This document shows, in pieces, positions 4,034 through 61,543 of a stretch of DNA of 61,752 nt. The notes beneath the pieces were generated by a model. That model was not told the DNA's origin. It worked only from the letters and a program-made list of their open reading frames with translations, and searched no databases. Where the stretch lies: the NCBI GenBank assembly GCA_029007645.1, contig JAQXIE010000095.1, positions 1 to 61,752 on the forward strand. Reading direction: 5' to 3'. This DNA is from Bacteroidales bacterium (lineage in GTDB: Bacteria; Bacteroidota; Bacteroidia; Bacteroidales; Muribaculaceae). Both the position numbers and the translations under genes were made by a program. Each line of letters opens with the position of its first letter. Position 1 is the stretch's first letter.

Positions 4034-7000
4034 ATGTCAGTAAATTTAACCGAAAAACCGCGTGTAAACTTCGCGTCGATTAAAAATCCACTGCCTTTTC
4101 CGGATTTCCTGGACATACAGCTCAAGTCGTTCCGCGACTTCCTGCAGCTGGACACTCCTCCGGAGCAGCGCAAGAACCAGGGATTATACAAGGTGTTCGC
4201 CGAAAATTTCCCCATCGCCGACACCCGCAACAATTTCGTTCTCGAATTTCTTGATTACTACATCGATCCGCCACGCTACTCCATCGATGAGTGCCTGCAC
4301 CGCGGTCTGACCTACAGTGTGCCTCTCAAGGCCAAGCTGAAGCTCTACTGCACCGATCCCGATCATGAGGATTTCGAGACCTCGTTCCAGGATGTATATC
4401 TTGGCACGATCCCGTATATGACCGAACAGGGTACGTTCATCATCAACGGCGCCGAGCGTGTCGTCGTTTCGCAGCTGCATCGTTCCCCTGGCGTGTTTTT
4501 CGGCAACAGCACTCATGCCAACGGCACGAAGCTGTATTCGGCCCGTATCATTCCCTTCCGCGGCAGCTGGATCGAGTTTGCCACGGACATCAACAACGTG
4601 ATGTACGCCTATATCGACCGTAAGAAGAAGCTCCCCGTCACCACGCTGCTGCGTGCCATCGGGTTCGAGTCCGACAAGGACATCGTCGAGATCTTCGATC
4701 TGGCCGAGGAAATTACTGTCAACAAGACCAACCTCTCGAAGGTGATAGGCCGCAAGCTGGCCGGTCGCGTCATGCGCAGCACGCACGAGGATTTCGTGGA
4801 CCCCGATACCGGCGAGGTATCCTCCATGGAACGTAACATCGTGATCGTGGAGCGCGGCAAGGAGATCACCGAAGAGAATATGGAAGCCATCCTGGAGAGC
4901 GGCGTCAAAACTATCCTGCTCGAAAAGGAGGGTGTCGCTTCCAACGACTACAGCATAATCTTCAACACTCTGCAGCGCGATATGTCCAACTCCGAAACGG
5001 AGGCGGTCACTTACATCTATCGACAGCTGCGCAACGCCGATCCACCGGATGCAGCTTCGGCGCGCGAGGTGATTCAGAGCCTCTTCTTCTCCGAGAAGCG
5101 TTATGACCTGGGCGAGGTAGGCCGCTACCGTATCAATAAGAAGCTCGGTCTCGACACTCCGATGGATGTGAAGGTGCTGACGCGCGAGGACATTATCGCC
5201 ATCATCAAATATCTGATCGGTCTGATCAACGCCAAGAGCGAGGTCGACGATATCGACCACCTCAGCAACCGCCGTGTCCGCACGGTCGGCGAGCAGCTCT
5301 ACAACCAGTTCGGCGTCGGCCTGGCCCGCATCGCACGTTCCATCCGCGAGAAGATGAACGTCCGCGACAACGAGGTGTTCAAGCCCATCGACCTGATCAA
5401 CGCCAAGACTATTTCGGCCGTTATCAACACGTTCTTCGGAACGAACGCGCTGTCGCAGTTCATGGACCAGACCAACCCTTTGGCCGAGATCACGCACAAG
5501 CGCCGTATGTCGGCCCTGGGTCCCGGCGGTCTGTCGCGTGACCGCGCCGGTTTCGAGGTGCGAGACGTGCACTACACCCACTACGGACGCCTTTGTCCTA
5601 TCGAGACCCCTGAAGGTCCCAACATCGGTCTGATCTCGTCGCTCTGTGTTTATGCCAAGATCAACAACCTCGGTTTCATCGAGACTCCCTACCGCAAGGT
5701 GGAGAACGGCAAGGTCGATCTCGACAACGACCACGTTGTCTACATGACCGCCGAGATCGAGGAGGGCAAGACCATCGCCCAGGGCAACGCGCCTGTCAAC
5801 GATGACGGTACGTTTATCGATAATAAGGTCAAGGCCCGTCTGGAGGCCGACTTCCCGATCGTGGCTCCCGAGGAGCTCGACCTGATGGATGTGTCGCCTC
5901 TGCAGATCGCTTCGATCGCCGCATCGCTGATTCCGTTCCTGGAGCACGACGATGCAAACCGCGCGCTGATGGGATCGAACATGATGCGTCAGGCTGTGCC
6001 TCTGCTGCGCAGCGAGGCGCCCATCGTCGGCACCGGTATCGAGGGCCAGTTGATCCGCGACTCCCGTACGCAGATCATGGCCGAGGGCCCGGGTGTCGTA
6101 GAGTTTGTCGACGCTACCGAGATCCGTATCAAGTACGACCGCACCGAGGACGAGGAGTTCGTACAGTTCGAACCCGCTACCAAGGTCTACAAAATAGCCA
6201 AATTCCGCCGTACCAACCAGGGTACCACCATCGACCTGCGTCCTATCTGCGACAAGGGTCAGCGTGTGGAGAAGGGCGACATTCTGACTGAGGGCTACAG
6301 CACCGAGAAAGGTGAGCTGGCTCTGGGTCGCAACCTGAAAGTGGCCTTCATGCCCTGGAAGGGTTACAACTACGAGGATGCCATCGTGCTCAACGAGCGC
6401 ATGGTCCGTGAGGATATCCTGACATCGGTCCATGTCGACGAGTACAGTCTGGAGGTCCGCGAGACCAAGCGCGGTATGGAGGAGCTTACTTCCGATATCC
6501 CCAATGTGAGCGAGGACGCCACCAAGGATCTCGACGAGCGCGGTATAATCCGTGTCGGCGCCTACGTGGTGCCCGGCGACATCATGATCGGTAAGATCAC
6601 GCCTAAGGGCGAGAGCGATCCGACCCCCGAGGAGAAACTGCTCCGCGCCATCTTCGGTGACAAGGCCGGCGACGTCAAGGACGCTTCGCTCAAGGCCACT
6701 CCGTCGCTCAAGGGCGTCGTGATCGGCACAAGCCTCTTCAGCAAGGCCACCAAGAAGAAGAGCGGCAAGAACAGCACCAACGCCCAGCTCCCCATCCTCG
6801 ACGAGGAATACGAGGAGAAGCAGGCCGAACTGCTCGACCTGATGGTCAGCAAGCTCCGCACCTTGCTCAAGGGACACGTGTCGCAGGGTGTCAAGGACTA
6901 TATCGGCGTCGACATCGTGCCTGCCGGAAGTTCCTTCGACAATATCGACTTCAAGTCGCCCGAGGTGATCGATTACGAGACTGTCCACATTTCCAACTGG

Positions 7001-7882: not shown

Positions 7883-12190
<4,308 letters not shown>

Positions 12191-13015: not shown

Positions 13016-13042
13016 TCATATTTGCAAAATTATGTAATTTTG
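13012..13042 (+). promoter_or_regulatory. Promoter of the cobalamin-riboswitch transcript
   Basis: TTTG (13012-13015), 19 bases, TAATTTTG (13035-13042). Box and spacing fit the Bacteroidales consensus. It overlaps the luxS terminator tail and the 5' edge of the riboswitch, so the RNA may start within the first bases of the P1 stem as drawn below. Confidence 0.55.
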
Positions 13043-13201
13043 CAGGTGCAGACAGTGTCGTTATCGACATAATTGGGAATGGGGTGAGAATCCCCAACAG
13101 TCCCGCTGCTGTGAGTTTCCGTAACAACCGGCGGTAACAGCCACTGGGCCGACAGGTCTGGGAAGGCACTCCGGTTTGGAAGCGAGTCAGAAGACCTGCT
13201 G
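13042..13201 (+). ncRNA. Cobalamin (B12) riboswitch
   Basis: The core consensus of the adenosylcobalamin class is present: GGGAATGGGGTGAGAATCCCC then ACAG-CCCGCTGCTGTGA (about 13076-13114), GCCACTGGG (13139-13147), GGTCTGGGAAGGC (13156-13168) and GAGTCAGAAGACCTGC (13184-13199). GCAGGT (13042-13047) can close with ACCTGC (13194-13199) as P1. It ends about 48 bases before the btuB ATG. Binding of B12 is expected to lower expression of the receptor gene that follows. Whether control acts on termination or translation is not evident: I see no T-run terminator before the ATG. Confidence 0.93.
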
Positions 13202-13248
13202 CTGCATATTTAGATGATATAGATCCTGCGAGGACGGGATATTAGATT

Positions 13249-28857: not shown

Positions 28858-28955
28858 GCTGAATTAAACCCTTAACAACCTCCAAGTAGATGACAAAAAT
28901 ATATGCTGTTAAAACTCCAAATTCGATGTTTTCATAATTTATCATGCGCTTAAGC

Positions 28956-29120
28956 TGCAAAGTTACAATCAGGAAAGTTTTCAATCAAGGATAAAAGTTT
29001 GACGGCGCCAAAATGCAATGTGTTAAACTGTAGATAATTACATATAGGCAATATTCGGATTTCCGCGCAAGGGTATCAAAAGTTTGACATAAGGGCAATT
29101 CTTCCTAAGGATCCATGACT
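28956..29120. repeat. 165-bp repeat, copy 1 (matches 54905-55069)
   Basis: The first 114 bases are identical, as far as I can read, to 54905-55018; the rest is closely similar with scattered changes (for example around 29070 and 29093-29116). On the minus strand it begins just after a CTA trinucleotide and ends with a promoter-like TAACTTTG (28965-28958). Confidence 0.85.
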
Positions 29121-30068: not shown

Positions 30069-30113
30069 AGAGCTTTTGCCGTTCGGTTCCGTGCCTTGAT
30101 ATCTTAAAATTCT
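30069..30113. repeat. Terminal repeat module overlapping the 3' end of the TPR gene
   Basis: Read on the minus strand: GAATTTTAAGATATCAAGG then CACGGAACCGAACGGCA, the same module as inside element 1. Its TTTTAA supplies the stop codon of the gene at 30104-31822. Confidence 0.75.
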
Positions 30114-31822
30114 TTCAGGAGTTTGCGCACGTAAATGCCGATGTTTGTCTCGTGCTTGTCTATGCCGAGTTTTTTGCGTATGGCACTGCTGATATTCACA
30201 TGGCTGCGCATCTTCATGTAGCTCCCGACTTCCTTACCTTTCAAGCCGATGGCGTAAAGACATACATAATTGATTTCGCTTACTGTCAAGCCATGATCCT
30301 CGAAATACTGAATAAACCGGGGATGTGAAGCTTGAAATGCAAGTCGATTACTGTTCATGAACTCTTCGGTATTGTCGGTAAGCTCCTTAATCCACGTATC
30401 ATAGGGTTTCTCATACCGGTCATTGTTGGTGATATAACCGGCCATTAAAGCATTTAACATCTCAATGCGTACTTTTATGGCTTCCTGAACTTCTGACGGT
30501 AATTCTTCCTGCGAGTCCATTAATTCCTTCAGACTAGCACTCTCATTCTCCAATATTTCAACCCGGTGAGCCAGATTCTCCGCCTCTAAAGCTTTTTTGT
30601 CTCTTTCCGCTTTAAGGTTTTCGTTTTCAAGCTCCGTATTTTTCGCTTTCTCAAGGGCTAAATCTTTCTGCGTTTTATTACTGCGGAACAGCAGGGATAG
30701 AATAACTACAATGAAAATAAGAAATATAATCCCTGTGACGCAACTCCAGATGATTTTGGTTTTCTCTCTTGCCTCCTGTTGGGCTTGGAGTTCTATTTGA
30801 TGTTTTTCCTCAATGGATTTTGACTTTTGATCAAATCTCAGCATGGTTATAGAATCCATTTTATGGCTATAATTTTTATAGGCTGCAAGAGCATCCTTGT
30901 AATTGCCCATATCCTCAAAAATTGGAACTGAGATTGCCAAGTACTTGAGTGTATCATACACTTGCTCAGTATTAATAGAACTAAGTAGATGTATAGCCTC
31001 TTTATTTTTGCCAACCTTGTTATATGCTAATGCAAGGTTGAGTTGGCCATCGGTGTCAAGGTTGGAATTTTCTGCTTGATTTTTTATTAGATTTTCAATA
31101 TCATGGATATTCCCCAATCTATTGGCATATGATAGTTTGTATTCGTTTAGAGTAAGGTTCTGAATACTGTCTAAATCCTTGAATTCAACACATAATGCTA
31201 ATATGCTGTCTCCTTTTGTCTTGTTATCCAACGCAATATATCCATTAAGGGCATTAAGCAAGCAGTCAAACTCATGCCACTTATAAGATAAGTGTTTATA
31301 GATTTTAGCAGCTTTTAAGTGGCAGTTAATATAACTATCTAAGTCGTAGAATTCGTCGTATAATCCTCCTTGTGCAACAAGAGTCCTTGCTATGCACAAG
31401 GAATCATTACTCTCTGTAGATACATCGATTCCTTTGATAAAAGAATTCAGGGCCTTATCCCGGTCTCCCCGGTTCTGAAATATGCGTCCCTGATAGTAGT
31501 ACGTGCGAAGTTTCTCTGTAGGATTCCCTTTTTCGAGGTAGTAGTCAATCGCCGGTTGCAATACATCAAATGATGTTGTATCGATAAAATTCTTATCGAG
31601 TGCCATCGACATCAGGAGACCATATCGAGCCAGTTCTTCTTTTGAACTAAGACTCGATTTTTCGATCCCTTTAAGAATAGTCAAAGCAGAATCCGGGTGA
31701 TCTTCCATCAGAGATTCCGCACGGTTTAGTACTTCTTGATTCTTGAGATCAGTGCAAGCGGTTATGCAACATGCCAGCAATAGCAGCATGAGCATAGAGA
31801 GATGATATAAATGTCTCATCAT
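30104..31822 (-). CDS. Lipidated TPR protein with membrane span, coiled coil and C-terminal HTH (copy 1)
   Basis: A 572-residue predicted membrane-bound regulator. From ATG 31822: a lipoprotein signal (LLACCITAC, lipid Cys about residue 22), TPR-like helices to about 345, one membrane span (about 357-380, IIWSCVTGIIFLIFIVVIL), a charged coiled coil (about 385-460) and a C-terminal LuxR-like helix-turn-helix (HGLTVSEINYVCLYAIGLKG, then MRSHVNISSAIRKKLGID). The order implies periplasmic sensing and cytosolic DNA binding. Upstream in-frame codons to 31957 overlap gph and are not used. It is the last gene of the cell-wall operon, 11 bases after gph. A paralogue lies at 52422-54230. Function is inferred from architecture. 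Confidence 0.85.
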   Translation of the reverse strand: MMRHLYHLSMLMLLLLACCITACTDLKNQEVLNRAESLMEDHPDSALTILKGIEKSSLSSKEELARYGLLMSMALDKNFIDTTSFDVLQPAIDYYLEKGNPTEKLRTYYYQGRIFQNRGDRDKALNSFIKGIDVSTESNDSLCIARTLVAQGGLYDEFYDLDSYINCHLKAAKIYKHLSYKWHEFDCLLNALNGYIALDNKTKGDSILALCVEFKDLDSIQNLTLNEYKLSYANRLGNIHDIENLIKNQAENSNLDTDGQLNLALAYNKVGKNKEAIHLLSSINTEQVYDTLKYLAISVPIFEDMGNYKDALAAYKNYSHKMDSITMLRFDQKSKSIEEKHQIELQAQQEAREKTKIIWSCVTGIIFLIFIVVILSLLFRSNKTQKDLALEKAKNTELENENLKAERDKKALEAENLAHRVEILENESASLKELMDSQEELPSEVQEAIKVRIEMLNALMAGYITNNDRYEKPYDTWIKELTDNTEEFMNSNRLAFQASHPRFIQYFEDHGLTVSEINYVCLYAIGLKGKEVGSYMKMRSHVNISSAIRKKLGIDKHETNIGIYVRKLLKEF

Positions 31823-31833
31823 AATAGGTCCGA

Positions 31834-32487
31834 TCAGATTTCGCGGAGGGCGATGCGCAGTATTTCCTCGGGCGACGACACGATATGGTCGGCATAGGCG
31901 GAACGCAGTTCCGACACCGGCCGGAATCCCCACGTCACGCCTACGGACTCCAGACATGCCCGGCGTGCCGTCTCCATATCCACTCCCGAGTCGCCCACAT
32001 ACAGCACGTCGCGCTTAGGGCACGGCGATTCGTTGAGCACCTCGAACACGATCGACGGATCCGGTTTCTTGGGCCGGTTGCCCGATTCGCCCAGGACAGC
32101 AGCGAACTTTATCTCCGGGAAGTAATGGCTGATGATCTTGGTCACAGCCGACTGATACTTGTTGGAAGTTACGGCCAGGGCTATTCCGCGGTCCGACAGA
32201 TCATACAGCAGCTCGGTGATGCCCGGATACGGCTTGGTCTGGTCCGTGCAGTGCCGGTCGTAGTAGGCCCGGAAACTTGTCAGCAGTTTGTCGATCATTT
32301 CAGAATCGGCGTCAGGCTCGGCGCGCTCCAGTAGTTTGCGGACACCGTTGCCGACCATATAATTGTAGGCCGAGAGGGGATGGGTCGAGTAGCCCCATTC
32401 CTCGAGTGCATGGTTGCATGCGTTGCCCAGATCGGCGATGGTATTGAGCAGTGTGCCGTCAAGATCAAAGATTACTAAATGCTTCAT
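31834..32487 (-). CDS. gph: HAD-family phosphatase, phosphoglycolate phosphatase-like
   Basis: A 217-residue haloacid-dehalogenase hydrolase. Motif I is FDLDGTLLNT (nucleophile Asp, residues about 7-16), a four-helix cap follows (about 18-85), motif II is AVTSNK, motif III includes KPDPSIV and motif IV is VGDSGVDMETARRA. The cap type and sequence fit Gph, which removes phosphate from 2-phosphoglycolate, but HAD substrates are hard to predict. In this operon a sugar phosphate from cell-wall salvage is an alternative. It lies 52 bases after the TamL-type gene. Confidence 0.85.
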   Translation of the reverse strand: MKHLVIFDLDGTLLNTIADLGNACNHALEEWGYSTHPLSAYNYMVGNGVRKLLERAEPDADSEMIDKLLTSFRAYYDRHCTDQTKPYPGITELLYDLSDRGIALAVTSNKYQSAVTKIISHYFPEIKFAAVLGESGNRPKKPDPSIVFEVLNESPCPKRDVLYVGDSGVDMETARRACLESVGVTWGFRPVSELRSAYADHIVSSPEEILRIALREI

Positions 32488-52421: not shown

Positions 52422-54230
52422 ATGAACAACCTTTACAAAAAGCTAACAATTTGCATATTACTATCATCATTTGTGTTGGTAGTATCCAGTTGTGGAGGAT
52501 CCGGAAAAGTGTGGAAAAAACTGGATCAGGCAGAGCATCTAATGGAGGCGAAACCGGATTCCGCACTTGCCATTTTGGACAATATCAAACTTTCGACTCT
52601 TAAAAACGGAGAAGAATCGGCTCGATATGCACTGCTAAAGTCAATAGCATTGGATAAAAATTGCATTGATACAACGACATTTGATATTATAAATCCGGCA
52701 ATTGGTTATTACTTGCAGCATGGTTCTGCGCATGAAAAATTCCTGACTTATTATTATTGTGGGAGAATCTATCAAAATCAAGGTAATGAGGATTCTGCGA
52801 TGGAACAATTTATGAATGCTGCCGACTTGAAAAATGAGATAAAGGATTCTACCTTGCTTGCTCATAATTTAGTAGCCATGGGATCTTTATATTTTAAACA
52901 ATACAAAATCAGTAAGTTCATAGAGACAAATATGGACGCAGCAGAAATATATGGCAGGATCGGCAAGAGAATACTGGAAATTAAGAGTTATACAAATGCC
53001 ATTGATGGCTATATAATGATGCATGACAAAGCTGCCGCAGACAGTGTCTTATCCGTATGTATGCCTTTGGTACATGATTATCCTGAAAGTGAGGGGTTTG
53101 TATTCTCTTCATTACTTTCATATATAATAGAGTTTGGAACATCAGAAGAAATTGCCAACTTTCTGAATGAATATCAAAATTTAGAATTAGAACAAGATGA
53201 TGCTTTAAACTTCGCACAAGGATATTCCAAAATAGGAAAATTTGAAAAGGCAATAAATATCATATCAGATATAAAAATAGAGGGAACTGTATTAGATTCT
53301 CTTAAATATATTTCTGTTAAGACAGGAATATACGAGAAACAGGGTGATTACCAACGAGCCTTGTCCTTATTTAGAGAATATTCTGCTATGTTGGAGCGTT
53401 ATCAGAAGCATCTTCTTTCTCAAGATTTACTTTTTGCAGATGAGAGACATCAACTTGAAATGACTAATCTAATTGAACTTCAAAACAGAGATCGTATTAT
53501 TTGGGGTATTCTTTGTGGTTCATTTGCGTTGTTTTTGCTTGTTGGCTGGTTCTATTACAGATATCGTCTTTTGCGTTCAAAAAGACTGATTGCAGAAAAA
53601 GATAATGACAATTTGCGGCTTGAACAGGAAAATCTTCGTAGAGAAAAGGAAAATGCCGAACTGGAAAGAGACAAAAAAACGCTTGAGGCTCAAAACCTTG
53701 AGAAAGAAAGGAAACGTCTTGTTGCAGAGCAACATCTGCGTGAACTTGAAGCGGCTAATCTTATTCTCGAAAAAAAGCAATTAGAAGGAGAACGAGACAA
53801 CCTAAGGGATTTGCTTAAAGAGCAAACGGAATTATCCAAGCCAATACAGGAGATTATAAAAATGAGGCTTGACATGCTAAATAGTTTATTAGCTAAAGAA
53901 ATAACGAATAATGAAAGTTATGCAAAGCCCTATAACAAATGGATTGAGTCTATACGTAATGACAAAAGCGAGTTCATGAATTCGACGAGGCTTGCATTTA
54001 CTGCGTCACATCCTCGATTTATTGAATATCTGGAACAACATGGCCTTAGCATTGATGAGATCAACTACATATGTCTATATGCAATAGGCTTACGTGGCAA
54101 AGAGGTTGGAGAATATATCCAGCTTAAACGCCATTACAATATCAGCAGTGATATTCGAAAAAAACTTGGTATAGATGAACACGAGACAAACATAGGTCTG
54201 TACATCCGTAAGAGAATGAATGAGCTATAA
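52422..54230 (+). CDS. Lipidated TPR protein with membrane span, coiled coil and C-terminal HTH (copy 2)
   Basis: A 602-residue paralogue of the protein at 30104-31822. It has a lipoprotein signal (VLVVSSC, lipid Cys about residue 24), TPR-like helices to about 350 (IALDKNCIDTTTFDIINPAI matches the paralogue closely), one membrane span (about 360-382), a Lys/Glu-rich coiled coil about 30 residues longer than in copy 1, and a C-terminal LuxR-like HTH (HGLSIDEINYICLYAIGLRG, NISSDIRKKLGIDEHETNIG). The gene is AT-rich, unlike its GC-rich paralogue. It lies next to the peptide operon and could regulate it, but that is inference from position. Confidence 0.85.
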   Translation: MNNLYKKLTICILLSSFVLVVSSCGGSGKVWKKLDQAEHLMEAKPDSALAILDNIKLSTLKNGEESARYALLKSIALDKNCIDTTTFDIINPAIGYYLQHGSAHEKFLTYYYCGRIYQNQGNEDSAMEQFMNAADLKNEIKDSTLLAHNLVAMGSLYFKQYKISKFIETNMDAAEIYGRIGKRILEIKSYTNAIDGYIMMHDKAAADSVLSVCMPLVHDYPESEGFVFSSLLSYIIEFGTSEEIANFLNEYQNLELEQDDALNFAQGYSKIGKFEKAINIISDIKIEGTVLDSLKYISVKTGIYEKQGDYQRALSLFREYSAMLERYQKHLLSQDLLFADERHQLEMTNLIELQNRDRIIWGILCGSFALFLLVGWFYYRYRLLRSKRLIAEKDNDNLRLEQENLRREKENAELERDKKTLEAQNLEKERKRLVAEQHLRELEAANLILEKKQLEGERDNLRDLLKEQTELSKPIQEIIKMRLDMLNSLLAKEITNNESYAKPYNKWIESIRNDKSEFMNSTRLAFTASHPRFIEYLEQHGLSIDEINYICLYAIGLRGKEVGEYIQLKRHYNISSDIRKKLGIDEHETNIGLYIRKRMNEL

Positions 54231-54488: not shown

Positions 54489-54872
54489 CTATTTATAGGA
54501 ATTTATAACGTTCTCCAATTCTTGAGCATCTTCGGGATATAATTTATACATTCTGCCCTCTTTGGTGATTATAGTCAGAGTGTTATAAAATTTATAACTG
54601 CGCTCCACTTGAGATATGGCTGCTAAGTTAACTTCGGTTCTTTCAAAAGAATTTCTTTTTACAAAACTAATTCTTCCATCTTTGATTAAGATGTTTCTGG
54701 GATAAAAAAGGGCAAAGAATATTGTAATACCAGCAACCAGACTTGAGCCAACAAATTCCAATGGAGTTCTTAAATCTAAACATTTCAAGACTATGCAAAC
54801 TCCAAGCATATAGCCAACAATCGCTAAAAGCGATTGTATGGCTATATATCGTTTGTCAATTTTAAACTTCAT
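54489..54872 (-). CDS. Small two-span membrane protein with PH-like domain
   Basis: A 127-residue protein: two hydrophobic spans (about 9-30 and 40-58), then a soluble C-terminal domain with alternating beta strands ending in a helix (IKDGRISFVKRNSFERTEVN, SYKFYNTLTIITKEGRMYKL, EDAQELENVI). This looks like a bacterial PH-domain membrane protein. AT-rich. Its promoter lies inside the 165-bp repeat. Function unknown; an immunity role for the adjacent peptide system is conceivable but not supported by homology. Confidence 0.7.
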   Translation of the reverse strand: MKFKIDKRYIAIQSLLAIVGYMLGVCIVLKCLDLRTPLEFVGSSLVAGITIFFALFYPRNILIKDGRISFVKRNSFERTEVNLAAISQVERSYKFYNTLTIITKEGRMYKLYPEDAQELENVINSYK

Positions 54873-54904
54873 GTTAATTATACTTCTTTTGATAGTTTTG
54901 ATGT

Positions 54905-55069
54905 TGCAAAGTTACAATCAGGAAAGTTTTCAATCAAGGATAAAAGTTTGACGGCGCCAAAATGCAATGTGTTAAACTGTAGATAATTACATATAGGCAA
55001 TATTCGGATTTCCGCGCAACTGTATCAAAAGTTTGACATCAAGGCAGTTTCCCTAAGGAACCATGACCT
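54905..55069. repeat. 165-bp repeat, copy 2 (matches 28956-29120)
   Basis: Fills nearly the whole gap between the PH-domain gene and the lipoprotein gene. The first 114 bases are identical to copy 1 as far as I can read. At its right edge it includes two bases of the lipoprotein stop codon (CTA at 55068-55070), and at its left edge it provides the PH-domain gene promoter. Confidence 0.85.
54907..54938 (-). promoter_or_regulatory. Promoter of the PH-domain gene, carried by the repeat
   Basis: On the minus strand: CTTG (54938-54935), 20 bases, TAACTTTG (54914-54907). It lies 34 bases upstream of the ATG at 54872. Confidence 0.55.
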
Positions 55070-55535
55070 ATACATACCGATACCAAACGGTGAAAGTTCC
55101 ATCATCGCCATACTCGACATGTATTTCGAAGTCGCGATTCTTTTCCAGCTTAAAGGCGAGCTTAAAAGCGAGCGTTGAGGCATCGCCTTTTCCTTTGCCG
55201 CTGCCACCTTTAATCCAGCCGTTGCCTTTAGGCGCTCTCGTTTTCGGGTGATCTTCATGGACGATGACATCAGCAATAGCATTTACGAGAGCATAGTCTT
55301 CTGCTGACATAGCGGTGTATTCACCAGTGGATGCGTCATATAAAATATATGAGTCTCCATTTGTCCCGTTGTCGTGAGATTCAACAACCTTAACGAGAAT
55401 TTCTGTAAGAGGATTCATATCAGTAGAATACTCTTCTTGTGTTTGAACCTGTGGCTCATCATCGTTCTGACAGGAGGCAAGCCCTACCAGGGCAATTCCT
55501 GAAAGCGCGATAGGAATAAAAATTTTTAATTTCAT
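55068..55535 (-). CDS. Small lipoprotein of the peptide operon
   Basis: A 155-residue predicted lipoprotein of no family I recognise. From ATG 55535 it begins MKLKIFIPIALSGIALVGLA with lipobox LASC (Cys about residue 22), followed by acidic residues (QNDDEPQ). A region rich in Asp/Tyr follows, then a Gly/Lys linker (APKGNGWIKGGSGKGKGDAS) and a C-terminal beta-like end (FEIHVEYGDDGTFTVWYRYV). The acidic residues after Cys resemble Bacteroidota surface-export signals. It is the last gene of the peptide operon, 55 bases after the exporter; a candidate immunity or surface protein (inference). An upstream in-frame Met at 55589 is less likely. Confidence 0.75.
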   Translation of the reverse strand: MKLKIFIPIALSGIALVGLASCQNDDEPQVQTQEEYSTDMNPLTEILVKVVESHDNGTNGDSYILYDASTGEYTAMSAEDYALVNAIADVIVHEDHPKTRAPKGNGWIKGGSGKGKGDASTLAFKLAFKLEKNRDFEIHVEYGDDGTFTVWYRYV

Positions 55536-55590
55536 GTGTTTAGTAGATGACTTAATGTTCATCCAATGAAGTGCCAAAGGATTGATCATG

Positions 55591-57759
55591 TTATACTGAC
55601 AGTTGCAGCTGATTTTTTACCAATTTCCAGTATTCGCCCTTTAAGGCAATCAATTCAGAATGAGTCCCTGTTTCTTGTATCTCCCCATTTTTAATAAATA
55701 CAATCTTATCGGCATTTTGCACTGTGCTGAGTCTGTGAGCGGCAATCACAATCGTTTTACCCTTACCATATAAATTGATATTAGATACGATGCTTCTTTC
55801 ATTATTTGCGTCCAATGATGAAGTTGCTTCATCAAGGAATAAAATATCAGGATTTTTATATAAAGCGCGTGCTATCATCAGACGTTGCTTTTGTCCTCCG
55901 CTCATTTCTATACCAGCAACACCTATTTTTGTAAAAATTCCCATCGGGAGTGAATCTACGAATGTTTTAAGTCCAACAGTGGTTAATAAAGATTCGGATT
56001 TCTCTACATCAGGTTTGTCCATTGATAGTGAAATGTTTTCAATTATTGTTCCGGAAAACACCTTTGCTTCCTGCATAACGACACCGCAGTGTTTCAGCCA
56101 GTCTTGGTTATCCAAAGACCTGACATTATGATTGCTTAACGAGAGCTCTCCCTTTTGAGGAATATAAAATCCGAGCATAAGTTTTATAAGAGTGGATTTC
56201 CCACATCCGCTTTCTCCGACAAGAGCCGTGACTTTCCCTTTTTCGACAGTTAAGGAAAAATCTTTAATGACAAATGGCGAACCAGCTCCAGCATATTTAA
56301 AGAATACATTCTTAAATGATATTGTTGGTTCCGTAAATTTTTCATTACCTCTTAATTCAGTATTATCATGAATAACGTCATCAATGCGTTGATATGAGAG
56401 GAGTGCTTCTTGAAATGAAGTAATGGAAGATCCCAAGGTCGTAAAGGGCTGAGACAAACGTCCTGTTATATAGCTCAATGTCATTAAAGTACCGAATGTA
56501 ATATCACCGGATACAACTAATGCAGCACCTACTCCTGTAACAGTCAAATCCTTAATGCGGGTCAATAAAGTGTGCCCACCTCCTTGAGCAATATTAACCA
56601 ATGTAGATTTTAATGATATTTTATTTAAAGTTGCTTGTGTGTCCTTCCATTTCCCGATTCGGGCCGCCTCTGCATTATTGACTTTTAAATCAGCCATTCC
56701 ATTTGTCAACTCATAGGCATGATTATGATTCTCGGCAGAATTAGTAAAGAGAGCGTAATCTAAAGTTTTTCTCTTATTCAGAAACATTGTATTCCAAAGT
56801 ATCTCAAATATTGAAATCACAAAAAAAATCATAAAAATTAAGACACTATAATGGAATAATAGAACGGAGAATACAATAATGGTTAAAACCGTTACTATGG
56901 AGGTATTAGGGAATGACAACAGAAAATCTTTTATTCGGGTTTGGTCGCTGATTTTCTGCACAAAATCCGAACTGACTTTTTTGTCAAAGAATGACAATGG
57001 GAATCTTGCCAGCTTTTCCAAAAAAGTATTTACCATATCCATATGGATATTTAATCCAGTTTTAGTAAGGATTAAGTCCATTCCATTGGATGCAACCAAT
57101 CCTCCAAAAGTAATGGCAAATTGAGATAAAAGCAAGGTAATAATGAGATTCATATTCCTTAACCCAATTCCTTCATCTACAGTTCTTTTTAGTAATAGTG
57201 GAATAGCAAAGTCGGCAGCCATGATAAGTATTGTTATCAAGAGTGCTATTAAGAAATTTCTTTTATGAATTTTAAAAAAATCGTATAGATATGTGAGAAA
57301 CTTAGTCAGATTTTTTTCTTTGGGATAGTGGAAATTATAGAATGAATCGGAGGGCTCTGCTAAAATTGCAACGCCCTTATTGTTATCGTCCGATAGCCAG
57401 TATTTTAAGAAATCATCTTCATTATAAGCCAGTTTGCCCTGAGCAGGATCTGCAATATAATATTTTTTCTTTGAGGCACAATACTTATATAATACTACAA
57501 AATGTCTTTGTTGCCAATATAGTATGGCAGGCAGAGGCATTTTTGATATATATTCCTTAGACAATCTTACGGCGGAGGAATTCATTCCGATTGAATTGAA
57601 GCACGTAGTAATGTCCTTAATAGACATTCCTAATCGATTAAGATCAGAAATGCTATGGAGGTAACTTAATGGAATAGACATGCCATAATGCCGTGCAATC
57701 ATTTTGATGCATGTCAATCCGCAGTCAGAATGTTCTATTTGTCGATAGCATTTAAACAT
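55591..57759 (-). CDS. C39-peptidase ABC exporter (PCAT)
   Basis: A 722-residue peptidase-containing ABC transporter, which cuts double-glycine leaders and exports the core peptide. The N-terminal C39 domain has oxyanion Gln7, catalytic Cys13 (HSDCGLTC), His86 (QQRHFVVLYKY) and Asp104 (IADPAQGK), all in place. Then come six membrane spans (about 165-440), and an ABC domain with Walker A GESGCGKST, signature MSGGQKQR and Walker B ILFLDEATSSLD followed by the H-loop AAHRLS. It starts 8 bases after the outer-membrane protein gene. No HlyD-type adaptor or TolC gene is in the window. Confidence 0.95.
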   Translation of the reverse strand: MFKCYRQIEHSDCGLTCIKMIARHYGMSIPLSYLHSISDLNRLGMSIKDITTCFNSIGMNSSAVRLSKEYISKMPLPAILYWQQRHFVVLYKYCASKKKYYIADPAQGKLAYNEDDFLKYWLSDDNNKGVAILAEPSDSFYNFHYPKEKNLTKFLTYLYDFFKIHKRNFLIALLITILIMAADFAIPLLLKRTVDEGIGLRNMNLIITLLLSQFAITFGGLVASNGMDLILTKTGLNIHMDMVNTFLEKLARFPLSFFDKKVSSDFVQKISDQTRIKDFLLSFPNTSIVTVLTIIVFSVLLFHYSVLIFMIFFVISIFEILWNTMFLNKRKTLDYALFTNSAENHNHAYELTNGMADLKVNNAEAARIGKWKDTQATLNKISLKSTLVNIAQGGGHTLLTRIKDLTVTGVGAALVVSGDITFGTLMTLSYITGRLSQPFTTLGSSITSFQEALLSYQRIDDVIHDNTELRGNEKFTEPTISFKNVFFKYAGAGSPFVIKDFSLTVEKGKVTALVGESGCGKSTLIKLMLGFYIPQKGELSLSNHNVRSLDNQDWLKHCGVVMQEAKVFSGTIIENISLSMDKPDVEKSESLLTTVGLKTFVDSLPMGIFTKIGVAGIEMSGGQKQRLMIARALYKNPDILFLDEATSSLDANNERSIVSNINLYGKGKTIVIAAHRLSTVQNADKIVFIKNGEIQETGTHSELIALKGEYWKLVKNQLQLSV

Positions 57760-57767
57760 AAGTTTTT

Positions 57768-59849
57768 CTACCGTTCGATCTTGTATACTGTGGATGATGT
57801 ATTGTCCGGCCCTGATACGTCAATGTCCCGGTCGATCTTCTTGCCGTATCCGAAGGTGTATGTCAGCTTGACCCATACGGACCTTCCAGTTTCCAGTGTG
57901 TTGAGTATCGAACTGTAATGGGGAGATGTGTATTTTGTCCAGCTCTTGCTTTTGTTATTGAAAATGTTATCTACTCCAAGTGCTAAATACCAGTTGCCGT
58001 TACCATAAGTAAATGAGAAATTCCAGTAGTCCTGCTGCCATGACATCTCCATACCTTCTGAATCCAGATCCTTGTACGGACCTTCGTAAGAAAGTTCAAA
58101 GTTACAATTGCCAAGGGTATAGCCGATTTCCCCGGATAAACCGAAATGATTGAAATGCCTGTTGTTCTTGTTCCCGGTATTTACATAATGCCATTGGGGT
58201 GAGACGCTAACAGTAAGATTGTCGTCAAAGAACGATCCTTCTATATCTAAACTGGTTCTGATTCTGTCGGATGCCTTGGCATTGATGGTATGTTTAATAA
58301 GTCCTCCTTGTTCAATTGGAGCCGCGGTATAATATGATATCAGATCGTCCTGAGTCCTGACATAACCCACTGCAAGGGAAAGCGACAGCCATGATTTAGG
58401 CAGGTATGTTGTATAAACATAGGTGTCCCAGGACTTAAGACCTTTCAGATGGGGATTGCCTTGAACCCACAACAGATCCGAGTATTTCAGCAACACTGTA
58501 TTTGACTCTGTAGTGGATGGCGGCTGCATGAAGAATCGAAGCGAACCGTTCAGACTGAACACGGAAGATGGATTCCAATGTACCGAAGCGTCCGCAACTG
58601 GGCTGATGCTGGAATAACGTTGGCCGTCAATCTGCCAGAAAGAGCCGATAACTCCCGGTGCCAAGGAAAGGGAGACCGCATCCGTAGGTTGCCAGGACAC
58701 TTTAAGTGATGCCGAAATATCCTGCCTTGTCTGTTTTTGCCGTATCTGAGTTGATCCGGTATAATGAGTGGAGAACCAACTCATCCCGGTCCTGACAGGC
58801 AATTGGAATCTCCATTTGTCCGACAGCGAGAATGAAGGCAGCAGCCCCACCTTCAGGGTGTTGACATCCTCCTTGACATAGTTGTCAACAGGGGAGTCGG
58901 TTCCAAAGGCTGTCGATGTGAAGGAGTTGTTATGAGCGTATGAATAATTCGCAGCGGCGGATAAGAACCATTTATCCGTCAACAGGAAATAATAATTGCC
59001 CTGAATCTGCGGAGATATGTTCCTTGAGGTATTGAACGCGCTTGAATAGTTTGAAGCGAAAATATTCTCGCTCCATTGGTCAATGGATTTAGATCCGCTG
59101 CCCGGATTCTCCGTCCAGCCAAAGGATATGTTATGTGAGATTCGCATCCTTGATGTGGAATATCGGGCGTTAAACGCGCAATTTACTCCCTGGTATCTCG
59201 AAAAAGAGGATGTTTCCTCCATTCGGGATATGACGTCATAATGCTTGTTGTCATAATATATGTCGGAATAATCGGTTTCTCCATTTATTGAGGTTCGATG
59301 GTCCCGAGAATAATTGCCCGACACCATGGCGCCATACGTCATCTTTTTGTAGCTTAATTTGGAAGAAGCGGTATAATAACCATTGTTGGGGAATCGTTGA
59401 AAAGCATTAATTCTGGAGACTCCTCCCGATTCATACACCGACATCTTGAAGTTCACTACTTTTTTGGCTCCTTCGTAAACCGGATCCTGAGGGTTGTCGA
59501 TATATTGCACCAACTTTACATCGCTTGGCCAAAAAGTTGCAAGGTCTATGTTGTCGACCTTCTCGCCGTTAATAAAAAGGTCCACCGGTTCACCGGACAT
59601 GGAGACAATAATCCCGTCCTTAACTTTAAGAAACGGGATATGCATATTTTCAATCAGGGAAGCGGGACTGTCGGACAGCCGTTTATCTCTTTTCGTAGGC
59701 CTGATATTGACAATACCATCTGAAATCCAGGCTTTCTTCCCTGTAACGACAATTTCCTCCAATTCATTCACCGGTATGGAGTCATCAGCCATCGCAGGCA
59801 AGCACGACATAGCCAATAATGTCAATAAAAAGTTATGGACAATTTTCAT
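57768..59849 (-). CDS. TonB-type outer-membrane beta-barrel protein of the peptide operon
   Basis: A 693-residue outer-membrane protein. Signal peptide (cut near PAMADD, residue 22), TonB-box-like segment (LEEIVVTGKKAW), a compact plug-like domain (about 40-140, SPASLIENMHIPFLKVKDGI, GEPVDLFINGEKV) and a long barrel rich in alternating aromatic strands ending WVKLTYTFGYGKK. There is no carboxypeptidase-like N-terminal domain and no SusD partner, so it is not a glycan receptor. Between maturase (2-base gap) and exporter (8 bases) it is an integral part of the operon; it may release, take up or sense the peptide (inference). Confidence 0.82.
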   Translation of the reverse strand: MKIVHNFLLTLLAMSCLPAMADDSIPVNELEEIVVTGKKAWISDGIVNIRPTKRDKRLSDSPASLIENMHIPFLKVKDGIIVSMSGEPVDLFINGEKVDNIDLATFWPSDVKLVQYIDNPQDPVYEGAKKVVNFKMSVYESGGVSRINAFQRFPNNGYYTASSKLSYKKMTYGAMVSGNYSRDHRTSINGETDYSDIYYDNKHYDVISRMEETSSFSRYQGVNCAFNARYSTSRMRISHNISFGWTENPGSGSKSIDQWSENIFASNYSSAFNTSRNISPQIQGNYYFLLTDKWFLSAAANYSYAHNNSFTSTAFGTDSPVDNYVKEDVNTLKVGLLPSFSLSDKWRFQLPVRTGMSWFSTHYTGSTQIRQKQTRQDISASLKVSWQPTDAVSLSLAPGVIGSFWQIDGQRYSSISPVADASVHWNPSSVFSLNGSLRFFMQPPSTTESNTVLLKYSDLLWVQGNPHLKGLKSWDTYVYTTYLPKSWLSLSLAVGYVRTQDDLISYYTAAPIEQGGLIKHTINAKASDRIRTSLDIEGSFFDDNLTVSVSPQWHYVNTGNKNNRHFNHFGLSGEIGYTLGNCNFELSYEGPYKDLDSEGMEMSWQQDYWNFSFTYGNGNWYLALGVDNIFNNKSKSWTKYTSPHYSSILNTLETGRSVWVKLTYTFGYGKKIDRDIDVSGPDNTSSTVYKIER

Positions 59850-59851
59850 TA

Positions 59852-61150
59852 TTAAGAGTCTTTAAGATTGAACGAATGTTTGAATATGTCTAATATAATT
59901 CTATCCATATCAGATTCAGAATACTCCATAGTACACCTGTCATCATAATTATCTTCGATTGCGCGCTGTTTGCATCCTCCTCCACATAGAGGTGCAATCC
60001 GACAATTTTGGCATACGGATTTGGAAAGTTTTAAATTATTCCGTTTGTCGACGAGTTCATTATTGAAATGTATGACACCTTTTGAATCAAGTTGTCCAAT
60101 ACGGTTCTCAATAGTGAAATCTCTCGCCGTGCAGCCAAAAACATCTCCATTATAATTAATCAGAATATGGTTAATCTTATCACCATAGCAGGAATCGGTT
60201 ACATCATGGGGAATATAATTCGCCAATACTATGTATCCTGCACGCTGAAATTTTTGACGGATATCCCTTATTTTATGTTCCGTTTCGTCATTCGAATAGC
60301 TCCGATCCTGCCATACACGTTGAAAATCGAACTTAATATATTTTCTATTAATGGAAGGGATGTCGCTGAACGAGTCAAGAATAGACCATACACTATCGAT
60401 ATTTGTACTCGTGTAATTTACTCTGACAATTGTATCAATCTTTGCCAAGGATAGCTTGATGATATTATTTACAATAATGTCATAACTTCCATTACCTGAT
60501 TTATTATAACGGGTTCTGTCATGCTCATCTTTCCCTCCGTCTAACGTAATCTGAAAACCACAATTAAATTGAGAGAGGAACGCAATAATTTCATCGGTCA
60601 ATAACGCCCCATTAGACGTAAAATGCACATGCAAATACACTTGATTCTTCGTACATATATCAGCAACATGGGATATTACTGTTTTCGCAATCCGATTGAA
60701 ATGAAATAAAGGCTCTCCGCCGAAGAATCCTAATTCAAAAGTTTTAATTTCAGGATTTTGGAGAACAGAGTCGATATACCGAAGGGTGCCGTTCAACACT
60801 TTTGTATCCATACGGGAATGGGGTATATGATTCTCATAGCAATACCAGCAATTAAAATTACAATCCAAGGTGGGATTGATGTGAAGTATATATTCACTTG
60901 CATTATTATCCGAGTCTTCAATCAATTTGCGGAGACGAAGAACCTCATCCAATGACTCATCCACTATAATTTCTGCATCTGTCAATTGTTGGTATAGATC
61001 CGGGAACTCTGCAGATAATGACAAGATGTTATTATTCGACAAGTCAATTACTTTATTACGGACTATGACGAACTTTTGTGTAAAGGCATTAAATAGCAGC
61101 GTATGCCTATTGCTTATATGTAATATTGATGTATAGATACTAACTTTCAT
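59852..61150 (-). CDS. Radical SAM/SPASM peptide maturase
   Basis: A 432-residue predicted enzyme that modifies the precursor peptide by radical chemistry. From ATG 61150: about 85 N-terminal residues, possibly a peptide-recognition region; the SAM-cluster motif CNFNCWYC (Cys 97, 101, 104); GFFGGEPLF and the barrel; and a full SPASM set near the C terminus (CX13GX4C from CYGDK to VFGC, then CQNCRIAPLCGGGC, i.e. CX2CX5CX3C, then a final Cys in DDRC). Two auxiliary clusters are thus expected. Such enzymes form thioether or C-C crosslinks. It follows the precursor by 102 bases with a hairpin in between. Confidence 0.9.
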   Translation of the reverse strand: MKVSIYTSILHISNRHTLLFNAFTQKFVIVRNKVIDLSNNNILSLSAEFPDLYQQLTDAEIIVDESLDEVLRLRKLIEDSDNNASEYILHINPTLDCNFNCWYCYENHIPHSRMDTKVLNGTLRYIDSVLQNPEIKTFELGFFGGEPLFHFNRIAKTVISHVADICTKNQVYLHVHFTSNGALLTDEIIAFLSQFNCGFQITLDGGKDEHDRTRYNKSGNGSYDIIVNNIIKLSLAKIDTIVRVNYTSTNIDSVWSILDSFSDIPSINRKYIKFDFQRVWQDRSYSNDETEHKIRDIRQKFQRAGYIVLANYIPHDVTDSCYGDKINHILINYNGDVFGCTARDFTIENRIGQLDSKGVIHFNNELVDKRNNLKLSKSVCQNCRIAPLCGGGCKQRAIEDNYDDRCTMEYSESDMDRIILDIFKHSFNLKDS

Positions 61151-61165
61151 ATGCAAAAGCTTTAA

Positions 61166-61198
61166 TCGCAGGGGTATCAGGATTCTGATCCCCTGCGA
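61166..61198 (-). terminator. Hairpin between precursor and maturase genes
   Basis: A 14-bp stem with a single bulged T (61166-61180 with 61185-61198; outer arm TCGCAGGGG). On the minus strand it is followed by TTAAAGCTTTTG, a weak T-run. It probably terminates part of the transcripts, so that precursor is made in excess over maturase. Confidence 0.65.
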
Positions 61199-61252
61199 CA
61201 TTAAGGGACATGAATATCCTGGGCATTTCCTAATAGGATGCTACGCAATATA

Positions 61253-61543
61253 TTAGCCCAAGCCTGACAAAGTTTCGGGTTTTTGGGGTCTTTCTTTTGT
61301 TGTCGTCATACAACTGCCACGATTCCTTGATTTATCACATGCACTGTTGTAGTTCAGGCAGTCGCCGCCGTTGGTAGCATTGTGGCACTTCTTATACAGT
61401 TCGTTGATGCAATTGCCCCCATTTCCACCCATGAACTCCATGTTCGTTGAGAGAAGGACTGACTCACAGTTGCCCATGCCGGCCTCCATTGGAAGACTTT
61501 CAATGAAGGTCGCAATCGAGTTTTGTTTTCGATTTGTTTTCAT
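61253..61543 (-). CDS. Candidate RiPP precursor peptide with double-glycine leader
   Basis: 96 residues. The leader (1-40) ends LLSTNMEFMGG, a double-glycine site suited to the C39 exporter at G39-G40. The core (41-96) is rich in Cys, Asn and Gly and contains a degenerate repeat: NGGNCINELYKKC (41-53), NGGDCLNYNSAC (58-69), NRGSC (74-78). Five Cys are in the core, plus one in the leader (C26). Three Cys are followed by x-N (C45-I-N, C53-H-N, C62-L-N). The C-terminal 18 residues are Cys-free and polar. It is the first gene of the operon. No known family was recognised; the RiPP role rests on the maturase, exporter and GG site. A weak TACATTCG box lies upstream (61579-61572, minus strand). Confidence 0.82.
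   Translation of the reverse strand: MKTNRKQNSIATFIESLPMEAGMGNCESVLLSTNMEFMGGNGGNCINELYKKCHNATNGGDCLNYNSACDKSRNRGSCMTTTKERPQKPETLSGLG

Follow-up and report, generated by a model that had tools for sequence, protein, structure and literature searches.

A radical SAM-SPASM peptide cassette of Bacteroidales and the possible receptor role of its outer-membrane barrel

Described systems and the cassette of contig JAQXIE010000095.1

Clusters BGC6–BGC9 of the Bacteroidales, which encode ribosomally synthesized and post-translationally modified peptides (RiPPs), combine a C39 peptidase-ABC exporter (PCAT) with an outer-membrane protein (OMP) gene and contain no membrane-fusion protein, and the authors, in the part of the paper that deals with them, ask whether transport in these clusters uses a distinct mechanism (Fernandez-Cantos et al., 2023; PMC10352776). 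In the present work, we describe a cassette of similar composition in a Muribaculaceae genome (Bacteroidales bacterium, assembly GCA_029007645.1; 2.0 Mb, 112 contigs, 90% complete), where it lies on contig JAQXIE010000095.1, the whole of which, 61,752 bases, is the window of our analyses. The cassette consists of the genes for a precursor peptide with a double-glycine (GG) leader, a radical SAM-SPASM maturase, a TonB-dependent-transporter-like OMP (the barrel) and a PCAT. BGC6–BGC9 share with it the PCAT and OMP without a membrane-fusion protein and, for the most part, GG precursors, and BGC6–BGC8 also a radical SAM enzyme; unlike the window cassette, BGC6–BGC8 additionally carry YcaO and BGC9 carries LanM (PMC10352776), and the likeness is one of gene content. 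The term TonB does not occur in the main text of that paper, and the persistence of barrels is not a subject of its sections 3.2 and 4.

Two other described systems are of relevance. Methanobactin operons, in which a TonB-dependent transporter has been proposed to serve re-uptake of the exported product, come closest, of the RiPP operons that we know, in combining an exporter with such a transporter, as outlined in PMC3621798; a Pfam scan of the five genes of the window operon and two neighbours gave no DUF692 (MbnB), MbnC or MATE domain. Bacteroidetocins are GG peptides of Bacteroidetes with a peptidase-ABC exporter, leaders of 15–16 residues and, in most cases, a gene for a thiol oxidoreductase (described in PMC6671954), whereas the window peptide has a 40-residue leader, five core cysteines and a radical SAM maturase, and none of the scanned genes encodes a thioredoxin-type domain. 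A search of the mostly open-access literature gave no report on this precursor family, nor on a TonB-type receptor in such a radical SAM/PCAT operon beyond the OMPs of PMC10352776.

Five open frames, all on the minus strand, make up the window operon, viz. those of the precursor (61253–61543), maturase (59852–61201), barrel (57768–59849), PCAT (55591–57759) and a lipoprotein (55068–55589). For two of them a later start is taken: MKVS at 61150, favoured by alignment within the frame reaching 61201, places the maturase at 59852–61150, and MKLK at 55535, ahead of the lipobox, places the lipoprotein at 55068–55535. With these starts, the five minus-strand genes and the gaps of 102, 2, 8 and 55 bases given in the initial annotation are borne out. 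The precursor gene sits 209 bases from the contig end, and genes on its upstream side therefore fall outside the window.

Named relatives of the source genome are mostly Muribaculaceae or other Bacteroidales. Searches covered 297 genomes of the family for the precursor and 397 for maturase, barrel and PCAT N-domain, and the matched stretches were mapped for gene order and then recounted. Among the 25 best maturase matches, 22 are accompanied by a precursor of this family, two are cut by contig ends and one has a different Cys-rich GG peptide. A barrel gene is present at 22 of the same 25 loci, missing from two (G396 and G260) and cut off at one, so that the barrel is built into the operon, as had been noticed from the window alone. 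The precursor gene is thus conserved next to its modifying enzyme, as in a RiPP cluster, and since precursor homologues adjoin maturases in many genomes, the pairing is not due to chance. We conclude that this is a real RiPP cassette and that none of the libraries searched contains a curated model of its precursor family.

Gene order varies among the relatives. At locus L155 (G610) a radical SAM gene and a PCAT are followed by barrel, precursor and radical SAM genes, and at L154 (G637) the frames of maturase and PCAT overlap, with no barrel within the 10.7 kb examined. Two barrel copies lie beside or around one PCAT at L017 (10342–17846), L120 (5576–11968) and L122 (3960–10592), and L017 also has a second, partial PCAT frame.

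Precursor, maturase and exporter

The precursor (96 amino acids, aa) is made up of a 40-residue leader (61424–61543, minus strand), delimited by the alignment of precursors, and a 56-residue core. The leader, which in the family follows the pattern RIxxFIxSL...LLS...GG, ends in the double glycine at residues 39–40, after which the cut would be made. Core cysteines are found at residues 45, 53, 62, 69 and 78, i.e. 8, 9, 7 and 9 residues apart, and in an alignment of 20 diverse precursors C45, N47, C53, C62, N64, C69 and C78 are invariant and N58 and N74 are present in at least 90%, forming an array in which Cys-x-Asn alternates with Cys-x4-Asn. Over 35 precursors, CxN was observed 102 times and Cxx[STA]xN 45 times, where 500 shuffles gave 31.7 (sd 5.1) and 7.1 (sd 2.5), respectively, counts that are descriptive only because the sequences are related, and that used an automatic core cut which in a few rows picked another GG. 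The five conserved core cysteines, being an odd number, are ill-suited to disulfide pairing of all.

The initial annotation did not recognise the precursor family, and the precursor likewise has no match in Pfam or NCBIfam; a PHROGs search gave nothing for it, for the lipoprotein and the 127-aa protein that follows the latter, or for small secreted proteins, of which two were searched. A single-sequence search retrieved 12 homologous proteins, including the window's own cluster, and a 20-row profile retrieved 41, in both cases without a precomputed Pfam domain. The single sequence matches 11 of the 297 family genomes at E ≤ 0.01, its own included, of which the weakest (inside another frame in G233, across stops in G296) are probably chance; in G159 the contig (C77) stops just past two precursors, and the maturase may lie outside it. 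With the 20-precursor profile, 4 of 384 order-level genomes match at E ≤ 1e-4, including the source genome and two outside the family. Frames in which the beginning of the precursor runs on into a portion of the maturase, such as deletions between the two genes leave behind, occur in three cases (P0041, P0040 and L088 9777–10169). At L132 (8157–8504), a related maturase, barrel and PCAT are accompanied by a precursor of another type, which has a GG site and NNCxC repeats.

The maturase, identified by family scores, motifs and alignment, scores 56.5 bits with Pfam Radical_SAM (cut-off 29.5) and its N-terminal domain aligns with the N-terminal part of CteB. It has the motifs of ranthipeptide-type enzymes, viz. 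CxxxCxxC at residues 114–121 and the seven SPASM cysteines (C338...G-x4-C357, C397-x2-C-x5-C-x3-C410, then C423); of these ten cysteines, eight are invariant in 30 maturases and C357 and C423 are found in at least 90%. Its scores lie below the cut-offs of the curated models PapB (NF047865, 119.6 of 340 bits), CefB (NF038107, 166.8 of 600) and SCIFF (TIGR03974, 86.3 of 425), and it is therefore not assigned to any of these. CefB, a Cys-every-fifth maturase, is the best NCBIfam match (over residues 18–417), but the cysteines of the window core are spaced otherwise. The SCIFF and Cx3D core patterns of ranthipeptides, the maturation of which by CteB/SCIFF and PapB is among the closest comparisons, also differ from the alternating CxN/Cx4N array. 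For SPASM enzymes, this array may be a crosslinking pattern of a new kind.

An anaerobic sulfatase maturase is ruled out (TIGR03942, 78.7 bits versus a cut-off of 349.45). That the maturase works on some other substrate, with the small gene encoding an unrelated Cys-rich peptide, is very improbable in view of the precursor pairing kept at 22 of 25 loci, the invariant core cysteines, the GG leader with its C39 exporter and the sulfatase score far below cut-off.

The PCAT has Peptidase_C39 (105.6 bits, cut-off 22), ABC_membrane and ABC_tran domains above their Pfam cut-offs, and Q7, C13, H86 and D104, which we take to be the catalytic residues, are all present in its C39 domain. The C39 Q/C and H motifs are present in 35 of 35 PCAT rows (two rows being one contig), and the protein thus has the peptidase, membrane and ATPase domains of a PCAT, linked with a precursor that has the corresponding GG cleavage site. 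In G346, a partial frame ahead of the PCAT has no Pfam match. A membrane-fusion protein domain was looked for in the operon's five genes and the two that adjoin them and was not found, the contig ending soon after the precursor, and the visible locus therefore does not have the make-up of colicin V type export. TolC-type proteins are encoded in the source genome.

The double-glycine site, the complete maturase motifs and the intact C39 residues reported by the initial annotation are all confirmed at the positions given above. The two checks it had proposed, viz. conservation of the precursor beside the maturase and comparison with sulfatase-type subgroups, both favour a RiPP. Its reading of a modified, leader-cleaved and exported peptide stands as regards the motifs, the GG site, the C39 exporter and the gene pairing, but the lipoprotein does not hold as a conserved member. 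The maturase would bind the leader and crosslink the core through its cysteines, possibly as Cys-to-Asn or similar thioethers (-2.016 Da each, the calculated [M+H]+ of the unmodified core being 6048.77), and the PCAT, to judge from its C39 residues and the GG leader, would cut after the GG and carry the product over the inner membrane.

The outer-membrane barrel and its role

The barrel protein has a signal peptide recognised by eye, a LEEIVV stretch that we liken to a TonB box, a plug at about residues 40–136 and a barrel at 139–671; L30, E32 and V35 are conserved in at least 90% of 36 barrel rows. The N-terminal plug in a large barrel and the TonB-box-like stretch, together with the TonB of the source genome (three TonB_C matches above cut-off), are the features of a TonB-dependent transporter. 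Two barrel types occupy the cassette slot, one of about 700 aa (that of the window) and one of about 770–1000 aa. All 14 of the longer barrels sent to Pfam match OMP_b-brl_3 above cut-off and most of them also match a carboxypeptidase-regulatory domain at some level; in addition, Plug is matched by the longer barrel of groundwater genome GWF2_38_335 (L021) and the TonB receptor barrel model by that of L101.

Thirty-one barrel matches at E ≤ 5.5e-62, from 26 genomes, were taken as rows; in most genomes two candidates were scored per genome, and some barrel copies may therefore be missing. Maturase and PCAT are both present in six rows, PCAT with no intact maturase seen in nine, and PCAT fragments beside an intact barrel in four (G139:C32, G162, G394 and G009), while six rows have no cassette gene on the PCAT side, five are cut by contig ends and one is a truncated barrel (G218). 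At L088, maturase and PCAT are each broken by large deletions and frame changes, while the barrel that separates them is an open frame of 706 codons. Five genomes (G201, G185, G142, G086 and G137; 87–99% complete) have a barrel and neither a PCAT N-domain at E ≤ 1e-6 nor a maturase at E ≤ 1e-40. Solitary barrels are scattered over several parts of a rapidly built barrel tree (support below 80% at 9 of its 30 inner branches), and amino-acid-changing differences among them are far fewer than silent ones (pN versus pS, the only quantities quoted because dS was saturated in 11 of 12 pairs, 9 of barrels and 3 of PCATs).

In genomes without this PCAT an exit pore would be useless, whereas a receptor for a neighbour's product, or immunity, would have a use, and the genomes in which no PCAT was found are a stronger point than the asymmetry between barrels and PCATs. 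The likeliest single role of the barrel is in our judgement uptake, i.e. the RiPP pathway would have its own receptor, a view held with slightly less than even confidence. The initial annotation had proposed an outer-membrane route or a receptor; persistence without the exporter leans to the latter, and the route is less favoured.

It is possible, if rather unlikely, that the barrel is instead the dedicated exit of the peptide, powered by TonB and replacing membrane-fusion protein and TolC, with the solitary copies being leftovers or repurposed. Such an exit fits the 31 closest PCATs, 27 of which have a barrel gene in the cassette (two do not and two lie at contig breaks), the nine rows in which barrel and PCAT persist as an export pair would, the lack of a fusion-protein gene among the window's genes at the operon and the PCAT and OMP pairs described in PMC10352776; Oar, a TonB-dependent transporter required for secretion, provides a precedent (as described in PMC6434023). 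It is at odds with the intact, little-changed barrels of genomes in which no PCAT or maturase of this type was found, with the TolC-type proteins of the source genome and with G260, where precursor, maturase and PCAT have no barrel between them and no barrel matches at E ≤ 1e-10, although this contig breaks off close to the precursor and a barrel of a distant type could have gone unnoticed.

The PCAT counts, the nine rows of barrel and PCAT without an intact maturase and the Oar precedent weigh against the receptor reading, as do the following points. Barrels also break, viz. the truncated one of G218 and the second copy of G384, among these nine rows, which has an internal stop. No broken barrel lies directly upstream of the 31 PCATs, and this zero versus PCAT fragments in 4 of 31 barrel rows is too small a difference to decide. 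The barrel-alone loci were found by a barrel search, and their excess is thus partly due to ascertainment; PCATs lacking in some metagenome-assembled genomes may be unassembled, and the search would overlook exporters that are more distant. In G378, the PCAT starts another contig and is presumed to adjoin the barrel. No consistent context naming a ligand was found among 19 genes scanned near solitary barrels. The present results show that the cassette is conserved, that the core has a Cys/Asn array, which folds are predicted and that barrels persist without the pathway; a ligand, metal or sensing role of barrel or peptide is putative.

At L106 (7959–11001), in G342, 58 bases separate a solitary barrel from a preceding ABC-3 permease gene, of a family that includes metal importers, a single-case hint of metal; other solitary barrels have MFS, HlyD/MacB-like or housekeeping genes in their vicinity.

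A bacteriocin operon, in which the barrel would serve self-protection or decoy binding and the orphan barrels would be orphan immunity genes, is improbable. PCAT-linked GG peptides of Bacteroidales do include toxins, viz. the bacteroidetocins (PMC6671954). Orphan immunity genes would persist in non-producers, like these barrels, and TonB receptors are bacteriocin targets, with Cir (microcin V) and FhuA (microcin J25) being among the barrel's matches. A TonB-type receptor for a toxin, however, normally makes a cell sensitive rather than immune.

On the receptor reading, the product would leave the cell by a general TolC-type or another route and the barrel would take it, alone or with cargo, back in; the product may be a public good or signal, e.g. 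a pheromone or a peptide that binds metal. A receptor role of the barrel would make these peptides shared molecules, on which cheaters in the gut could draw, and this reading addresses the question raised in PMC10352776, viz. the role of the OMP in Bacteroidales RiPP clusters that have a PCAT and no fusion protein. The complete picture, viz. a new RiPP class of gut Bacteroidales with a Cys-x-Asn/Cys-x4-Asn crosslink ladder, the product a metal carrier or pheromone that serves as a public good, is recovered through a dedicated TonB-dependent receptor and is exploited by receptor-only neighbours that have lost the pathway, is unlikely to hold in all its parts.

Neighbouring genes and repeats

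The lipoprotein (lipobox LASC, by eye) is co-directional with the cassette genes, and the initial annotation counted it as the fifth operon gene, a place it does not keep as a cassette member: besides its own, 4 of 110 genus genomes match it at E ≤ 0.001, and the one close match (G334, 45% identity) is on a 9.5 kb contig in which no cassette gene was found. It is followed by a 127-aa membrane-like protein (54489–54872, minus strand) with no family above cut-off. Rfam gathering scores gave no regulatory RNA at the operon, the only matches being a tRNA and a distant cobalamin riboswitch (13035–13217, plus strand, 102.1 bits).

A neighbouring tetratricopeptide repeat (TPR) protein (52422–54230, plus strand) has, by eye, a lipobox-like N-terminus, a transmembrane stretch and a C-terminal helix-turn-helix (HTH)-like end. 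Its homologues occur at 9 of 30 maturase loci and at none of 14 other loci (p 0.04 in a Fisher test; the authors selected the loci, which span 475 versus 209 kb), and this TPR-HTH protein, near a minority of cassettes, could speculatively be a sensor. Several other cassettes have a small secreted protein in or beside them, in most cases in the interval from a TPR-HTH gene to the precursor or maturase. These proteins (about 117–159 aa, with signal-like starts) form a few related groups and are found at L017 8133–8543, L089 7814–8176, L109 11465–11818, L096 8703–9182, L099 9771–10142, L107 8261–8662 and L130 10253–10636; those of L017, L089 and L107 have no Pfam match above cut-off. At L088, two nearly identical small secreted proteins (5993–6382 and 10233–10622) flank the decayed cassette with its intact barrel.

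The only relative of the TPR-HTH protein in the source genome at E ≤ 1e-4 is encoded at 30104–31957 (minus strand; 44% identical), adjoining about 1.5 kb without sizeable open frames (28.5–30.1 kb) that is rich in inverted and direct repeats; sites resembling GACGTGGACGTCGTC occur seven times in the window, versus 0.11 expected. Two intergenic stretches of the window, 28950–29051 and, close to the operon, 54878–55000 (both minus strand), have short frames that read nearly the same words and are probably a dispersed repeat.

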